A DNA stretch of 23,832 nucleotides from a virus: the IMG/VR virus record IMGVR_UViG_3300030099_008064, positions 1-23,832 of that record; one strand, written 5' to 3'. Shown here piece after piece: positions 3,629 to 16,168 of this stretch. The notes beneath the pieces are model-generated. The model did not search any database. It was not told the origin of the DNA and was given only the letters and a program-made list of their open reading frames with translations. The translations under genes and the position numbers were made by a program. How positions within the stretch are numbered: position 1 is the first letter of the stretch; the number at the start of each line of letters is the position of its first letter.

Positions 3629-3951
3629 GTTACGGAAAGCAACAAAAATCGATTTTCTTCTCAGATACAGATAAGCGTCATGCGGATTTGATACTAAAAC
3701 TGAGAAGAGATGGGTTAACGCAGTCGCAATTCTTTAGGTCGATGGTTACTGGTTATATAAATAACGATCCGAATGTGGTTTTATTTATAGAAAAGATAAA
3801 AGAGGGAATCGGTCGAATCGGCAAAAAGAAGATAAAGAGGACATCGCAAGAGATCAGAGAGGGGACAAGTGTCCTCGATCATCTAGGTTTTTCAGAAGAA
3901 GATGTAGACTTTGTCTTCGATTTAATTGAGCGAGGAGAAGACGAAGCATAA
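3625..3951 (+). CDS. Hypothetical protein, possible ribbon-helix-helix-like N-terminus
   Basis: A 108-residue protein that I do not recognise. Residues 8-45 (a short strand, then a D-K-R-H-A-D helix, then the turn G-L-T-Q-S-Q-F and a second helix) look like a ribbon-helix-helix DNA-binding unit. A basic patch KKKIKR is in the middle, and the tail from about 88 (EEDVDFVFDLIE) is acidic with regularly spaced hydrophobic residues, like a protein-docking peptide. It overlaps the previous stop (ATGA) and shares one base with the next start, which is a sigma-region-4-like gene. A regulator acting together with that neighbour is a reasonable guess, but unproven. Confidence 0.78.
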   Translation: MSYGKQQKSIFFSDTDKRHADLILKLRRDGLTQSQFFRSMVTGYINNDPNVVLFIEKIKEGIGRIGKKKIKRTSQEIREGTSVLDHLGFSEEDVDFVFDLIERGEDEA

Positions 3952-6277: not shown

Positions 6278-7542
6278 ACACCGCCCAATCTCTTGATAAC
6301 ATCATTGACATGATGGGTTCAGTAAGGACACCAGAAGAAATCAATGAGATGACTTCAGTTGTCAGGAGATCGATTTTGTTGTATTACGTGCAACCGAAGC
6401 ACTTATCCAAAACAAGATTAAGAAAAATATACGATTATCTAAAAAAAAACCTAGACAAAAGCGTCAAGAAAGCAAGTGACCGACAGATTTCTAACTATCT
6501 TAAGGGCAGAATATATGCAAAACAGATAGCGAAGGAAAACGACAGTTTGGAATTTGAATTTTACGTAACAAAGAACAAGTACGATGGCATTGATGTGGTG
6601 AGAATGGTTAACACTAAAGGTATCACCAATCCAAAATTTCTAAAGTCGGGAAGCGCATACAAAATTGATGAAGAGATCATATCGCTTTCTGGCAAAACCC
6701 CAGGCGATTCAGTGCGTATGTTTAAAACTAGTCGTCGGTTCGACCAGATAGAGGACGAATTTTTACAACAGTTTCAGGAGGCGTTACAAAAAGTTGGACT
6801 GGGAACCAGAACTAGGACTGTTATTGTTGGCGGCAAGGTCTTTTACAACGTTGCCAATATCATCAAAAAACCTGGTCGTGCAAACGATCCAGGTGCCGAC
6901 TTTGTTTTCGTCGATGTGGATGGTAAGGTTGTTCCTGAATCGGGTATTTCACACAAGGGGCAAGTATTTAGGTCATATGGAGGCATAAGAAATCTATCAT
7001 CTCAGATTAAACTGCTTGAATTGAAGTCCTTTATAGAGGATGTGAAAGAGGAGTGGAAGAAGGTGATCCGTTCTGGTCGCACACCAAGCGAGGTTGGATT
7101 TATAAGGCATCTGCCCGACGATGTCATTAGTAAGATTTTATACAAGGGGGACATAAAGTTTGTAGTTATAGGAAATTTAAAATTTGACTACGACGGAAAA
7201 AAAGAAGCAGTAATTATTTCAGGTCCCGGACTGCACCAGGAACCTAGTATTCCAGACAAGGAGTATAGACCGGTCCTGAAAAGTATATATGGCACAGGTG
7301 GCACAAAGTTTCAGTATGGACTCGCAGCAGATCTCTATTTCAACCTTTCTGAGATGGGTGATATGAACCTTGTGTCTGCATCTATGGAGGAAAAGATACT
7401 TTCTATGAAGATGGAACCGGTTAAAGATAATATAAGCGAGATACCGGAGGTTGCTGACGTCGTCATCGCAGCAAAATTACCAATCAGGTTGGAGTGCGTG
7501 CCTAGCAACAAGGCAAGAAGCAAGCGCTTGAAAAAAATATAA
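6274..7542 (+). CDS. Conserved hypothetical protein with SHK...YGG block
   Basis: A 422-residue protein without a membrane segment or known catalytic signature. It has a helical N-terminus (1-90), a mixed alpha/beta middle, and the block DVDGK (214-218)...ISHKGQ (225-230)...YGGI (235-238). I recall a similar ADxxLVDxxGK...SHK...F..YGG arrangement in other large marine phage proteins of unknown role. The D...K arrangement is faintly nuclease-like but lacks a clear (D/E)xK. It overlaps the ClpP stop by four bases (ATGA), is the last gene before the groEL promoter and ends in a basic tail. A function cannot be assigned. Confidence 0.85.
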   Translation: MNTAQSLDNIIDMMGSVRTPEEINEMTSVVRRSILLYYVQPKHLSKTRLRKIYDYLKKNLDKSVKKASDRQISNYLKGRIYAKQIAKENDSLEFEFYVTKNKYDGIDVVRMVNTKGITNPKFLKSGSAYKIDEEIISLSGKTPGDSVRMFKTSRRFDQIEDEFLQQFQEALQKVGLGTRTRTVIVGGKVFYNVANIIKKPGRANDPGADFVFVDVDGKVVPESGISHKGQVFRSYGGIRNLSSQIKLLELKSFIEDVKEEWKKVIRSGRTPSEVGFIRHLPDDVISKILYKGDIKFVVIGNLKFDYDGKKEAVIISGPGLHQEPSIPDKEYRPVLKSIYGTGGTKFQYGLAADLYFNLSEMGDMNLVSASMEEKILSMKMEPVKDNISEIPEVADVVIAAKLPIRLECVPSNKARSKRLKKI

Positions 7543-7550
7543 AAATTCAA

Positions 7551-7579
7551 TTGACAAACAACATATACTTGTTTATAAT
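7551..7579 (+). promoter_or_regulatory. Consensus sigma-70-type promoter for groEL (TTGACA-17-TATAAT)
   Basis: TTGACA (7551-7556) and TATAAT (7574-7579) are both perfect consensus with a 17-base spacer. The expected start is near 7586, giving a leader of about 20 bases containing AGCGAGG before ATG 7607. Confidence 0.9.
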
Positions 7580-7606
7580 ATAATCATCATCACAAAGCGA
7601 GGTAAA

Positions 7607-9184
7607 ATGAAACAATATTCTAATGGTGAAGAACTGCATCACCTGATGCTGCAGGGGGTTAATAAACTTGCAGACAACGTAGCGTCAACCTATGGACCTA
7701 AAGGCAGGAACGTCATTTTAAAAGGTTTGGATAAGCGACCAATAATTACGAAAGATGGTGTAACCGTCGCAAGGTTTGTCACTCTAGACGATCCATTCGA
7801 GAACGCTGCTGTGGAGATAGTTAAGCAGGCATCCGAAAAGACAAACTCCGATGCTGGTGATGGCACCACCACGTCAACCATCTTGGCACGTTCTATTTTC
7901 TCCAAATCAGTAGAACTAATTGAGCGCGGAATCGACCCGGTGGAAGTAAAGAGGGGGTTGGATAAGGTTTGCGAACTGGTTTGTGCTGAAATATCTAACT
8001 CTTCCAGACCAGTTTCCAGTCTTGAGGATATTGCCTTCGTGGCAAAAATTTCAGCAAACAATGACCCTATAATTGGCGACCTGGTTGCGACTGCGGTGGA
8101 TAAGGTTGGAAAGATGGGGTCGGTGACAATCCAGGATGGACGATCGATGGAGACAACCCTTGATTTGGTAGAAGGTTTTAGGATTCAGTCAGGGTACGCA
8201 TCAAATTATTTTGTTACAGATGAGAGAAGAAATGTTTGCAAGTATGAAAATCCTTTAATTTTCTTATGTGACGCACAGGTGGAATCAGTGCAGACCATAC
8301 TCCCTGTTCTAGAGGTCGCTGCCCGAGAGCAGAAACCCATAATTTTGGTTTGTGATGATATAGAGGGGCAAGCACTTTCTGCCCTCATTATGAATGCTGT
8401 TAGGGGGTCAATGAAGGTCGCCGCAATAAAATCTCCAAAGTATGGAGAAGAACGAAGATCGATTATGGAAGACCTCGCCATTGCAACCGGTGCAAAGTAT
8501 TTTAAAACTATGTTAGGTGATGATCTGAAGCAGATTGACATTAACGATCTTGGCGTTTGCAAGACAGTAGAGATATCCAAATATGGAACAATCTTTGTTG
8601 GCGGCGGTGGCGACCCAGACAATATGCTTCAGAGGATTGAGGACTTGAACCAGCAAGTAAAAGAGGCAGAATCTTTAGTAGATGCGCAACAAATTCAAGA
8701 AAGGGTGTCGAGGTTGTCTAGCGGGGTTGCTATAATTAATGTTGGTGCACCAACCGAAATAGAAATGATTGAAAAAAAGCATCGAATTGAAGATGCCCTA
8801 GAGGCAGTCCGTTCAGCGCAGCAGCAAGGCATAGTTCCTGGCGGTGGGTTAACGCTTTATAGAATTTCAAAGCAGGTGCCAACCATCATAGAAGATCTTG
8901 ACTTAACTGAACATCAGCAATATGCAGCAGGAATATTCTCAGATGTGCTTCAGTCGCCGTTAAGGCAGATGTCCGCCAACGCTGGATTTGACTATGAGGA
9001 AATTGATTGTGACCTCGCAAACGAGGAAGAGGCGGTAGGGTTTGATTTTCTTAGCGGAAAGAAGGTTGACATGTATGAGTCGGGGGTTATTGACCCTGCA
9101 AAAGTAACAATACAGGCACTTCGAAATGCGGTTTCTGCATCCGGAACCTTACTGACTACTAATTACGCTATTATTGAGCAATAG
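7607..9184 (+). CDS. groEL: Chaperonin GroEL (60 kDa Hsp60)
   Basis: A full-length group I chaperonin of 525 residues, which forms the ATP-driven folding cage. Visible features: TYGPKGRNV (28-36), TKDGVTVA (48-55), the ATPase loop DAGDGTTT (82-89), VEGFRIQSGYASNYF in the apical hinge, and IEDALEAVRSAQQQGIVPGG with the ATPase aspartate. The C-terminus stops right after the last equatorial helix (TTNYAIIEQ), so the flexible Gly-Gly-Met tail of most bacterial GroELs is missing. Apical and intermediate segments diverge, as expected for a phage chaperonin that takes selected clients. No GroES/gp31-like gene is visible in this window, so it must use the host GroES, one encoded elsewhere, or none. 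It has its own consensus promoter directly upstream. Confidence 0.97.
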   Translation: MKQYSNGEELHHLMLQGVNKLADNVASTYGPKGRNVILKGLDKRPIITKDGVTVARFVTLDDPFENAAVEIVKQASEKTNSDAGDGTTTSTILARSIFSKSVELIERGIDPVEVKRGLDKVCELVCAEISNSSRPVSSLEDIAFVAKISANNDPIIGDLVATAVDKVGKMGSVTIQDGRSMETTLDLVEGFRIQSGYASNYFVTDERRNVCKYENPLIFLCDAQVESVQTILPVLEVAAREQKPIILVCDDIEGQALSALIMNAVRGSMKVAAIKSPKYGEERRSIMEDLAIATGAKYFKTMLGDDLKQIDINDLGVCKTVEISKYGTIFVGGGGDPDNMLQRIEDLNQQVKEAESLVDAQQIQERVSRLSSGVAIINVGAPTEIEMIEKKHRIEDALEAVRSAQQQGIVPGGGLTLYRISKQVPTIIEDLDLTEHQQYAAGIFSDVLQSPLRQMSANAGFDYEEIDCDLANEEEAVGFDFLSGKKVDMYESGVIDPAKVTIQALRNAVSASGTLLTTNYAIIEQ

Positions 9185-11084: not shown

Positions 11085-11425
11085 TGAAATACTTGTTTTT
11101 TGGGGTCTCTCTTTATTTGTTGGGGCAGACCTTGGGATGGTTTCAATTAAACGCCCAAAATCTATCGAAGTGGTGGAGCACTCGCCCACTGGCCTCTGCG
11201 ATTGTTTTTGGTATTCCTTGCTCTATGTTGTTTTGGTATGCTTGGAAAATCATCACTGAACATACTGGTTCGGCATGGACAGCAAGATTTATAGGATCCA
11301 GCGCTGGATTGATGGTCTTTCCGGTGTTGACTTGGTACTTGTTGGGCGAATCAATGTTCACGTGGAAAACGATGATTTGTTTTTCTCTCGCACTTTTAAT
11401 ACTTTTTATTCAAATTTACTATTGA
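11084..11425 (+). CDS. Four-helix inner-membrane protein
   Basis: A 113-residue integral membrane protein with hydrophobic segments at about 2-20, 38-56, 66-88 and 92-112, similar in size and layout to small multidrug-resistance/DMT-type half transporters. The phrase TLGWFQLNAQ and an RFIGSSAGLMVFP helix resemble a membrane family I recall from marine phages with unproven function. No charged residue typical of SMR pumps (Glu in helix 1) is present, so transport of cations is not supported. It starts in the preceding stop codon and ends at the hsp20 promoter. Confidence 0.85.
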   Translation: MKYLFFGVSLYLLGQTLGWFQLNAQNLSKWWSTRPLASAIVFGIPCSMLFWYAWKIITEHTGSAWTARFIGSSAGLMVFPVLTWYLLGESMFTWKTMICFSLALLILFIQIYY

Positions 11426-11450
11426 CATTTTGGGTATATGTGTTTATAGT
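11422..11450 (+). promoter_or_regulatory. Sigma-70-like promoter for hsp20 (TTGACA-17-TATAGT)
   Basis: TTGACA (11422-11427) overlaps the end of the preceding gene; TATAGT (11445-11450) follows a 17-base spacer. The predicted start near 11457 gives a 68-base leader. Confidence 0.85.
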
Positions 11451-11457
11451 ATAGATC

Positions 11458-11516
11458 ATGGGACAAACGCTTTTTGAGGAATGTCCCATTTAAATGTAAC
11501 TTGCTTAATAAGGAGG
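11458..11516 (+). promoter_or_regulatory. Candidate ROSE-like RNA thermometer in the hsp20 leader
   Basis: The leader has two parts. Hairpin 1 is a perfect 8-bp stem, ATGGGACA (11458-11465) with TGTCCCAT (11482-11489). Hairpin 2 is TTGCT (11501-11505), loop TAATA (11506-11510), then AGGA of the AGGAGG ribosome site (11511-11516). TTGCT pairs with AGGA only if the G is bulged, which is the signature of ROSE thermometers (U-U/C-G-C-U against the Shine-Dalgarno). ROSE elements are known before small heat-shock genes in bacteria. That this one melts with temperature is inference. Confidence 0.5.
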
Positions 11517-11524
11517 ATAATAAC

Positions 11525-11959
11525 ATGAATACAATAGCATTACATAGACCAGGACTTCTAGGTCACAAATATTTAAGTGAAGTTTTCGACAATCTGTTTG
11601 GCGATCAGCACTTCATGGATGGCGCAATCACCGCCACAACAAAGGGTTACCCTGTTGCTGATGTTTACAGGGATGATGATGGTTCCACGGTTTTGGAATT
11701 TGCCCTTGCGGGTTTTAAACGAGAGGAATTGAAGGTAGACGTTAAACCGGGAGAGAAAACCATCACCATTACAGGCACTGCAGAAGAGGATAATGACAAG
11801 AGATCTCGCATCGCAAGAAGAAACTTTAGTCGCACTTATATCAATTATGATAACAATCTTGACCTTGCCAAAGCGGATGCATCTTTTGAAAATGGATTGC
11901 TTTCTGTGAGGGTGCCCCAAAGACCCGATGCGCAACCATTGTCAATTAACATTCAATAA
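11525..11959 (+). CDS. hsp20: Small heat-shock protein Hsp20 (alpha-crystallin family)
   Basis: An ATP-independent holdase that binds unfolding proteins and passes them to ATP-driven chaperones such as GroEL. The 144-residue protein has an N-terminal arm (1-40), an alpha-crystallin domain (41-132: PVADVYRDDDG, LEFALAGFKREELKVDV, ITITG, ARRNFSRTYI, ASFENGLLSVRVPQ) and a C-terminal I-x-I anchor (INI, 141-143). The start is ATG 11525 with AAGGAGG 9 bases upstream; an in-frame TTG at 11474 would run through the leader hairpins and is unlikely. It has its own promoter and a structured leader. Similar genes are common in marine T4-like phages, where they are thought to help virion assembly. Confidence 0.96.
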   Translation: MNTIALHRPGLLGHKYLSEVFDNLFGDQHFMDGAITATTKGYPVADVYRDDDGSTVLEFALAGFKREELKVDVKPGEKTITITGTAEEDNDKRSRIARRNFSRTYINYDNNLDLAKADASFENGLLSVRVPQRPDAQPLSINIQ

Positions 11960-13418: not shown

Positions 13419-14357
13419 ATGAATCTTGGGTATGCTTGTATAAACATGGATCTGTCGACCCGCCCGAAGTCACAAAGAGTAACCACTAATCGGTCAATGA
13501 TCAAGAGAACGTTCCAACAACGTGGAATCGAATATGCATCTGAATTGGCATTGCAAAATTGCCGTGACCTTTTAACTATTTTTAGATGGAACGAACGAAA
13601 TAATATTAAATTTTATCGCATGTCTTCGGATCTGTTTCCTTGGTCTTCGGAATACAATTTGAGCGACTTACCAGATTATGAAGACATCTGTTACTATCTT
13701 AACGAGGCAGGATTGTTTGCAGAATTGAATGATCATCGTATTACAACGCACCCAGGACCATTCAATGTACTGGGGTCTCCCAACGAAAACACGGTACGTA
13801 AGACAATTAAAGAGTTGGAAAATCATTCGGAAGTTTTTGACCTGATGGGATTGCCCCAAACGCCATACGCTAAGATTAACATTCATGTTGGTGGTACATA
13901 TGGAGGGGACTTTGCCGGCACTGCTGATAGGTGGTGTCGTAATTTTTTGAAGTTATCTACAAATTGTCAAAACAGGATCACGCTTGAGAACGATGATAAA
14001 GCAAGCATGTGGTCGGTTAAACACCTGTATGAATATATTTACAAAGTGGTGCGAGTACCGATTGTTTTTGATTATCATCATTATAAGTTTTGTACCGGTG
14101 GGCAAACAGAGGAAGAGGCATTAAAGATGGCGGCATCAACATGGGGAGATATAAAACCAGTTGTTCATCTATCAGAATCACGCCGCGAGGAGTACAGGGA
14201 CCCCAAAATTAGACACCAGGCTCATTCTGATTTTATTTGCAATCCTGTAGAAAATTATGGTGTTGAGTATGATATGATGTTGGAGTGCAAGATGAAGGAG
14301 ACCGCACTTCTGAAGTACAGGAAGATATTGCAAAAACTTAAGGAGTCCACGACTTGA
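13419..14357 (+). CDS. uvdE: UV-damage endonuclease UvdE (UVDE)
   Basis: An ATP-independent repair nuclease that nicks DNA directly 5' of UV photoproducts. The 312-residue TIM barrel matches the family: LGYACIN at the N-terminus, FYRMSSDLFPW (65-75), HPGPFNVLGS (111-120), KINIHVGG (152-159), RITLENDD with metal ligand Glu190, VFDYHHYKF (His220, His221), VVHLSES (His250) and AHSDFI (His269). All metal ligands I would expect are present. ATG follows AAAGAAAGGCACTAAAT, and a promoter lies 28 bases upstream, so it heads an operon with the secreted hydrolase and later genes. For a phage living in sunlit water this protects infecting or replicating DNA; that setting is inference. Confidence 0.96.
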   Translation: MNLGYACINMDLSTRPKSQRVTTNRSMIKRTFQQRGIEYASELALQNCRDLLTIFRWNERNNIKFYRMSSDLFPWSSEYNLSDLPDYEDICYYLNEAGLFAELNDHRITTHPGPFNVLGSPNENTVRKTIKELENHSEVFDLMGLPQTPYAKINIHVGGTYGGDFAGTADRWCRNFLKLSTNCQNRITLENDDKASMWSVKHLYEYIYKVVRVPIVFDYHHYKFCTGGQTEEEALKMAASTWGDIKPVVHLSESRREEYRDPKIRHQAHSDFICNPVENYGVEYDMMLECKMKETALLKYRKILQKLKESTT

Positions 14358-15730: not shown

Positions 15731-16168
15731 ATGGGTAAGAGAACAATCGCAAAGGTCGGAAGGGAAGTTAGGGTTCATTACAAGGGTACGTTTGCCGACG
15801 GTACTGTTTTTGACAATTCGTACGACAGGGGCGAAACAATCGGGTTTACGGTCGGTGGTGGCGACATGATTCCTGGATTCGACAATGCAGTCAAAGGCAT
15901 GAGGGTCGGAGAGACAAAGACAGTCATGCTCACGTCAACAGACGCCTATGGACCAAGAAATCCAGATGGGGTCCAGCAGGTGAATAAGGAATATTTTCCT
16001 GATGATTTTGATTTTGCACCCGGACAGACCGTTGAAGGTCAGGTTGGCACTCAACCAGTTCGAGGAATTATTAATGAAGTCGACGATGATACGGTCACTA
16101 TTGACTTTAATCACCCGTTGGCAGGTAGGGATCTAAATTTTCAAATTGAGTTGGTTGAGGTAAGTTAA
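15731..16168 (+). CDS. slyD: SlyD-like FKBP-type peptidyl-prolyl isomerase
   Basis: A 145-residue prolyl cis/trans isomerase and folding helper. The FKBP core is at 10-68 and 126-145 (VHYKGTFADGTVFDNS, IPGFDNAVKGMRVGE). The SlyD-type insert-in-flap chaperone domain lies between (about 69-125: AYGPRNPDGVQQV, FAPGQTVEGQ, GIINEVDDDTVTID), closing with FNHPLAGRDLNFQIELVEV. The histidine-rich metal tail of cellular SlyD is absent. AAAGGAGAATAAC is a strong ribosome site, and a 46-base gap separates it from the upstream gene. Together with GroEL, Hsp20 and the ClpP-like protease it extends the protein-quality set of this region. SlyD is a host factor for some phages' lysis proteins, which gives one possible reason for carrying it. 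Confidence 0.95.
   Translation: MGKRTIAKVGREVRVHYKGTFADGTVFDNSYDRGETIGFTVGGGDMIPGFDNAVKGMRVGETKTVMLTSTDAYGPRNPDGVQQVNKEYFPDDFDFAPGQTVEGQVGTQPVRGIINEVDDDTVTIDFNHPLAGRDLNFQIELVEVS

Follow-up and report, generated by a model that had tools for sequence, protein, structure and literature searches.

The 67-nt leader (11458-11524) of an hsp20 gene of a marine phage, known from a virus record, is probably a short two-hairpin translational switch of the ROSE type. Its predicted two-hairpin anatomy is conserved and covaries among the sequences compared, and is linked near-universally to class-A genes for small heat-shock proteins (sHSPs) of phages; a translational stress switch appears, from these comparisons, to be standard equipment of these phages. 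The ROSE-like character that an earlier note on this DNA had proposed is supported by the motif rule, the bulged G, the two hairpins and the conservation of the leader.

The window, i.e. the whole stretch of DNA that was analysed and the source of the hsp20 leader under study, is a 23.8-kb virus record that carries five tRNAs; its features are collected in Table 1. Genes for folding and repair (Hsp20, Cpn60 chaperonin, FKBP isomerase, UvdE) are abundant in it. The cpn60 leader (7540-7606) has its own promoter-like TTGACA...TATAAT, and the ROSE motif is absent from this leader. The product of the hsp20 gene was identified as Hsp20 through Pfam (PF00011, 2.3e-12) and PHROG 432. In a tree of 109 proteins, the phage sHSPs, including the cyanophage ones, group with class-A IbpA proteins (support 100/97) and the cyanobacterial sHSPs are separate from this group; that cyanophage sHSPs are class-A proteins and stand apart from cyanobacterial sHSPs has been published before (PMC3827213). 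The gene is present in 505 phage records, mostly of T4-like cyanophages, widely cultured ones included.

Table 1. Position of the features of the hsp20 leader and of selected genes in the window.
Feature	Position	Strand	Basis or remarks
Sigma-70-like promoter TTGACA-17-TATAGT	11422-11450	+	-35 at 11422-11427, spacer of 17 nt, -10 TATAGT at 11445-11450
Hairpin I	11458-11489	+	8-bp stem 11458-11465/11482-11489 in the MFE fold; 2x2 internal loop; inner bulged-G module
A/U-rich linker, hairpin I to hairpin II	11490-11499	+	sequence
Hairpin II, ROSE-type hairpin at the Shine-Dalgarno sequence	11500-11516	+	fold, motif conservation, covariance model match
Shine-Dalgarno AGGAGG	11511-11516	+	sequence
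hsp20	11525-11959	+	144 aa, ATG at 11525; class-A (IbpA-type) small heat-shock protein
DNA polymerase III alpha-like gene	in window
Cpn60 chaperonin, FKBP isomerase, UvdE	7607-9184, 15731-16168, 13419-14357 (in the order listed)

The promoter that had been proposed upstream of the leader is present and strong, agreeing with the consensus at 11/12 positions; TTGAC(A) and an A/T-rich -10-like stretch stand at the equivalent place in L002, L003, L005 and L006. Since the promoter ends at 11450, the mRNA is expected to start at about 11458, and the predicted start should thus coincide with or adjoin the first base of hairpin I. The perfect 8-bp stem, also as proposed, is formed by ATGGGACA and TGTCCCAT. 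Its inner part holds a bulged-G module, a feature missed in the earlier note, in which C11468 ^G11469 C11470 U11471 (caret, bulged G) face A11477 G11478 G11479 and C-G pairs flank the bulged G. The linker that follows is 4-17 nt long in nearly all relatives. TTGCT (11501-11505) can indeed pair with the Shine-Dalgarno (SD) sequence around a bulged G: in hairpin II, C11500 U11501 U11502 ^G11503 C11504 U11505 U11506 stand against A11510 A11511 G11512 G11513 A11514 G11515. The predicted MFE fold of hairpin II is the neighbouring register, with G11503 opposite G11513, and the single-bulge, ROSE-like register is equally available. On its own, this local pairing is weak evidence, because the 79-nt leader folds with z = -1.8 and the window has 8 matches to TYGCT-N5-AGGA when one mismatch is allowed, with 8 expected; the exact pattern is found only at 11501-11514. 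Comparison across relatives raises the leader motif, as a sequence pattern, far above chance.

Relatives were selected by protein, as virus contigs through three queries (mostly marine and myophage-like) plus named phages; one of the loci, L001, is the window's own population and not independent evidence. The motif was defined as T[TC]GCT at 1-14 nt before the SD, and other ATG+SD genes of the same loci served as controls. It is present in 104/106 distinct phage hsp20 leaders versus 5/259 control leaders and, after removal of leaders with at least 75% identity, in 54/56 versus 2/169, where counts of leaders do not equal independent evolutionary events. Permuted motifs, with shifted copies of the real one excluded, were found in at most a handful of leaders. 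At the second motif position, 110 of 156 leaders have T and 46 have C, and A or G never occurs, as in the published U(U/C)GCU rule for ROSE elements. Named carriers are P-SSM2, P-SSM4, S-PM2, S-SSM7, S-CAM1, Syn30, ACG-2014d, Sf-FR1, pelagiphage Mosig and Agrobacterium phage Atu_ph07; Pseudomonas phage PAC2 has TTGCG instead of TTGCT, and Vibrio phage IBT_VpB-34 has TTGCT, but about 20 nt from the SD. L129 and L136 are the only two phage hsp20 leaders without the exact motif. The earlier note would have abandoned its idea if related phages kept the protein and lost the TTGCT/AGGA pairing; the pairing is kept down to about 30% protein identity. A blastn search of the region against named phages gave no match, and the named relatives were reached by protein search only. 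Campylobacter phage A11a (L137; MG065691.1, 74258-75420) was rejected as a carrier of a phage hsp20: this 'UNVERIFIED' record encodes E. coli IbpB with its leader, i.e. host contamination, and it was left out of the 106 phage leaders and kept as a positive control.

A blind scan of DNA for AACTTGCTNNNNNAGGAGRA, in which the protein was ignored, gave at least 120 matches in 2.9 million virus contigs; among the 120 matches listed, 61 are immediately followed by an HSP20 gene and six precede dnaK. When the anti-SD was scrambled (GC swapped to CG), none of the 120 matches listed was located before hsp20. The dnaK cases, AACTTGCT...AGGAG in six short contigs of the virus collection (L024, L055, L081, L088, L106, L122), suggest a ROSE-type switch on dnaK, mostly without a bulged-G hairpin I; at least some of these contigs may be cellular (SAR11-like) DNA. 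One contig (L051; start after 1631, + strand) has a full two-hairpin leader, CACAGU^GCC..GGGGCUGUG and CTTGCT...AGGAG, before a gene for a 69-aa protein with no Pfam match, and the candidate switch would therefore not be confined to chaperones. A glutamine riboswitch at gathering score (57 bits) was seen at 3859-3907 (- strand) of L100, a phage contig that also has the hsp20 switch.

Covariation in hairpin I was evaluated with 52 sequences that were chosen by the short core GCY-N4-RG, with stem pairing ignored; this sequence-anchored alignment is the fair test, whereas helix-I counts from a hairpin-selected seed alignment are biased. In this alignment 76.7% of the hairpin I cells are paired (56.4 when shuffled), 138 cells are changed on both sides yet paired (60.5 +/- 6.9 when shuffled), and the covariation score is 0.569 (0.226 +/- 0.020 when shuffled; at most 0.260 in slid controls). 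All four Watson-Crick pair types occur at the outer positions, and the core, Y-bulged G-C-Y / R-G, is fixed. A stem of at least 6 bp with exactly one bulged G occurs at hairpin I in 95/158 leaders, versus a shuffled mean of 3.0, and a bulged A, C or U at the same place is at background level. The ROSE core is, by predicted pairing, present twice, as hairpin I has its own Y^GCY/RGR bulged-G module. The closing pair of hairpin II (n = 140) is U-A in 123 leaders, A-U in seven and mismatched in 10 (Fisher p 2.9e-7); GGAGGU is found in 26/26 leaders with an extra U in the anti-SD strand (one clade) and in 0/114 leaders without it. Because most columns of the SD hairpin are invariant, the case for the predicted helix II is made chiefly by complementarity and by the Y rule.

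A covariance model (R1) of 20 leaders, with the window's closest family excluded, has its sole match in the window at 11478-11517 (32.3 bits, E 4.8e-7), with the score derived mostly from hairpin II. The model recovers the named phages (the Vibrio phage was missed and PAC2 was found weakly) as well as SAR11 and Comamonadaceae leaders, and gave no match in 521 kb of control loci, cyanobacterial hsp20 loci included. Over 96 alphaproteobacterial genomes two matched, a number that is no gauge of absence for a model that is tuned to phage/SAR11-like elements and run with strict filters. The sole match in 101 Cyanobiaceae genomes (L636, G408:C11:19467-19517; 27.1 bits, E 9e-4) is probably due to chance, since the T[TC]GCT-SD-ATG arrangement was not found there.

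The comparison with Rfam that the earlier note had suggested came out in part: the ROSE_3 model aligns in register up to the ATG and is the sole cis-regulatory family among the sub-threshold matches of the window, and no Rfam ROSE family reaches its gathering threshold in the window or in 14 relatives. Because ROSE_3 scores 17.3 bits against a cut-off of 43, the predicted element is ROSE-like and not a member of an Rfam ROSE family. As described for ROSE-like elements (PMC11182007, PMC3669281), U(U/C)GCU faces the SD, the anti-SD G is bulged (G11503 is invariant in the motif class and predicted to be unpaired), the number of hairpins is within the range of two to four with the SD in the 3' one, and the location is the 5'UTR of a heat-shock gene. 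UUUU facing the SD, as in fourU elements, is absent (no UUUU in 11490-11510), as is CUGCU with opposing bulged Gs, as in ROSE-G; the sequence is CUUGCU, and G opposite G is one of two registers.

The same two hairpins, bulge included, precede chromosomal hsp20 genes of SAR11 (16 genomes) and one Comamonadaceae gene. Among alphaproteobacterial loci chosen as class-A-like, the motif is present in 15/20 and the bulged-G hairpin I in 12/19. Hosts were counted from the picocyanobacterial family (a first cyanobacterial sample included many small genomes with sHSPs unlike those of marine picocyanobacteria): the motif was found in none of about 48 hsp20 leaders of host Cyanobiaceae, and any hsp20 at all in 55/121 genomes of the family, those of 1.3-1.9 Mb mostly being without. 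The class-A sHSP type of the phages is shared with SAR11, as is the leader, and in the sHSP tree the occurrence of the leader follows the class-A clade. The simplest reading of these distributions is that the phages carry a proteobacterial class-A sHSP together with its RNA switch, with no direction of transfer implied; this suggests that both may be exchanged as a single cassette between proteobacteria and phages and in this way reach cyanobacterial hosts as well.

For the function of the leader as a thermometer, the mRNA would start at hairpin I, and under low stress the U(U/C)GCU strand of hairpin II would pair with the SD around the bulged G and mask the ribosome site; a rise in temperature would melt hairpin II and free the SD, and the phage sHSP would be made without the need of a host heat-shock factor. 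That the SD is masked in vivo and exposed by heat we infer from the ROSE elements that have been validated (Pseudomonas, rhizobial and ABC-transporter ones). In the two-hairpin elements of Pseudomonas ibpA, heat melts hairpin II but leaves hairpin I folded (PMC3669281), and by analogy the SD hairpin of the phage leader is expected to open when warmed. In nearest-neighbour folding, the SD of the window leader has an unpaired fraction of 0.22 at 5 C and of 0.35 at 50 C, a mild change, and the method cannot decide thermal opening because the positive control, the E. coli ibpB leader, is equally flat (0.08 to 0.16, 5 to 50 C). Scrambling of the anti-SD (TTGC) in silico left the SD 0.95 unpaired, and deletion of the bulged G locked it (about 0.01 unpaired). 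Points against a thermometer are the shortness and low stability of the SD hairpin (-2.3 kcal/mol at 37 C), the modest thermal change predicted for it, and the ROSE_3 score far below the cut-off. Ocean temperature changes little during one infection, and a pure thermometer is for this reason less compelling than a sensor of stress or aggregates.

As an autogenous sensor of aggregates, the phage sHSP would bind its own leader (at the hairpin I module and/or hairpin II) and repress translation, and unfolded or aggregating proteins would titrate the sHSP during infection, with temperature acting indirectly. We regard this as a real possibility that falls somewhat short of an even chance; it is compatible with thermal melting, and leader binding via Arg93, relieved by unfolded protein, would likely be an addition to the thermometer. 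Residues are numbered after what we take to be the sequence of E. coli IbpA. This sequence agrees with Y34, R83, R93, R97 and K98 as named in the study that gives the precedent, i.e. self-repression of E. coli IbpA through the ibpA 5'UTR via an irreplaceable Arg93 (PMC10474464). The window sHSP keeps the IbpA-type Arg at the aligned site (IARRNF), as do 183/186 distinct phage sHSPs, the exceptions being those of L129 and L136, whose leaders are without the exact motif, and the E. coli IbpB of L137; Gly is found at this site in 18/18 cyanobacterial host proteins and in 27/29 other alpha sHSPs. That the leader follows the class-A clade also argues for such a sensor, as does the fixed bulged-G core on a freely covarying stem in hairpin I, which is like a protein site. 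On the other hand, Arg93 is a class-A trait that was possibly kept for other reasons, L129 and L136 also encode the most divergent proteins, L136 retains CUUGC facing GGAG, and binding of the phage sHSP to the leader is putative. A more speculative and slightly less probable combination of both functions is a dual sensor of two tandem bulged-G ROSE cores, in which hairpin II would be melted by heat and the Arg93 loop of the sHSP would read the hairpin I core, so as to sense temperature and unfolded protein; a proteobacterial cassette of this kind would have been carried by myophages into cyanobacteria, whose own hsp20 genes lack the switch and whose small-genome (1.3-1.9 Mb) members are mostly without hsp20.

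TAAATA, which resembles a T4 late promoter, is present upstream of the hairpin I core, in most cases by 12-17 nt, in 79/98 phage leaders, and it is present in 13/259 controls; given this box just before hairpin I, hsp20 is probably a late gene in these phages, with a transcript that would again begin at hairpin I. A 5'-terminal hairpin in this position could protect the mRNA, and the leader might be kept for transcript stability, ribosome standby or general phage late-gene translation, and not as a sensor. This is improbable, as it would account neither for the U(U/C)GCU rule, the bulged G and the complementarity to the SD nor for the fact that the link is exclusive to hsp20 (and a few dnaK) genes and that ibpA leaders of SAR11 and alphaproteobacteria have the element as well. 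Clearly less probable again is the action of a RegA-like phage translational repressor at the leader: in S-PM2, S-SSM7, S-CAM1 and Sf-FR1 (L131, L133, L138, L141) the gene next upstream of hsp20 is regA, but the element is also found in bacteria and in phage loci with a non-regA neighbour. Control of hsp20 by a regulatory upstream frame is hardly credible: the 11-codon ATG frame (11458-11493) that the earlier note had weighed as a competing explanation for part of the leader does exist at the predicted +1 and overlaps hairpin I, but it is not conserved in relatives (L003 has no ATG there, and the ATG of L002 opens a frame that continues into hsp20 without interruption), an SD is impossible ahead of an ATG at +1, and the changes in the stem are compensatory and not synonymous. 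The hairpin I ATG of L002 (upstream of 3001) possibly gives hsp20 a 22-codon N-terminal extension.

Read as a ROSE-type switch, the phage leader has in common with the ROSE-like element of Pseudomonas ibpA (PMC3669281) that there are only two hairpins, that hairpin I is stable, that U(U/C)GCU lies on the SD in hairpin II, and that the element directly precedes a class-A sHSP gene. It differs in being phage-borne, in a shorter hairpin II without the flanking G-C pairs described for Pseudomonas, in the conserved copy of the bulged-G ROSE core in hairpin I, and in its promoter, which is sigma-70-like in the window and T4-late-like in many relatives, in contrast to sigma-32 in Pseudomonas. The Rfam family ROSE_3 (RF02523) is matched on the right strand and in register (model positions 1-69, ending at the ATG), as it is, also below threshold, by Atu_ph07 (L135, 28.0 bits) and Sf-FR1 (L141, 20.7 bits), whereas the scores of phage leaders, 17.3 to 28.0 bits, compare with a cut-off of 43. 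ROSE-G (PMC12857270) shares the double-G arrangement with the MFE fold of hairpin II in the window, and differs in having CUGCU versus CUUGCU here. In the autorepression of E. coli IbpA (PMC10474464), too, the sHSP is of class A and has the Arg93 that is essential there, and the SD lies within a structured leader; the difference is that binding of the leader is putative for the phage sHSP.

What appears to be new is the combination of a ROSE-like and phage-borne element in which the bulged-G core is duplicated; a search of the open-access literature, subscription papers being outside its scope, gave no earlier account of a ROSE element in a phage. To our knowledge, published descriptions of ROSE do not include a sequence-specific bulged-G hairpin I, and none of the earlier phage RNA thermometers (lambda cIII, SPbeta blyA, Caudoviricetes sigma-70) is of the ROSE type; those of blyA and sigma-70 stem from studies of fourU elements, and lambda cIII switches between two conformations. 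These thermometers have in common with the hsp20 leader that phage genes are placed under RNA-thermometer control, and it has been suggested that more may exist in phages (PMC11182007). The role of the phage sHSP becomes testable, i.e. a chaperone supply that would be tuned to heat or to the phage's own protein-folding load, independently of host sigma-32. Very few phage RNA thermometers are known, and to these the hsp20 leader adds a conserved and testable candidate of the ROSE type.
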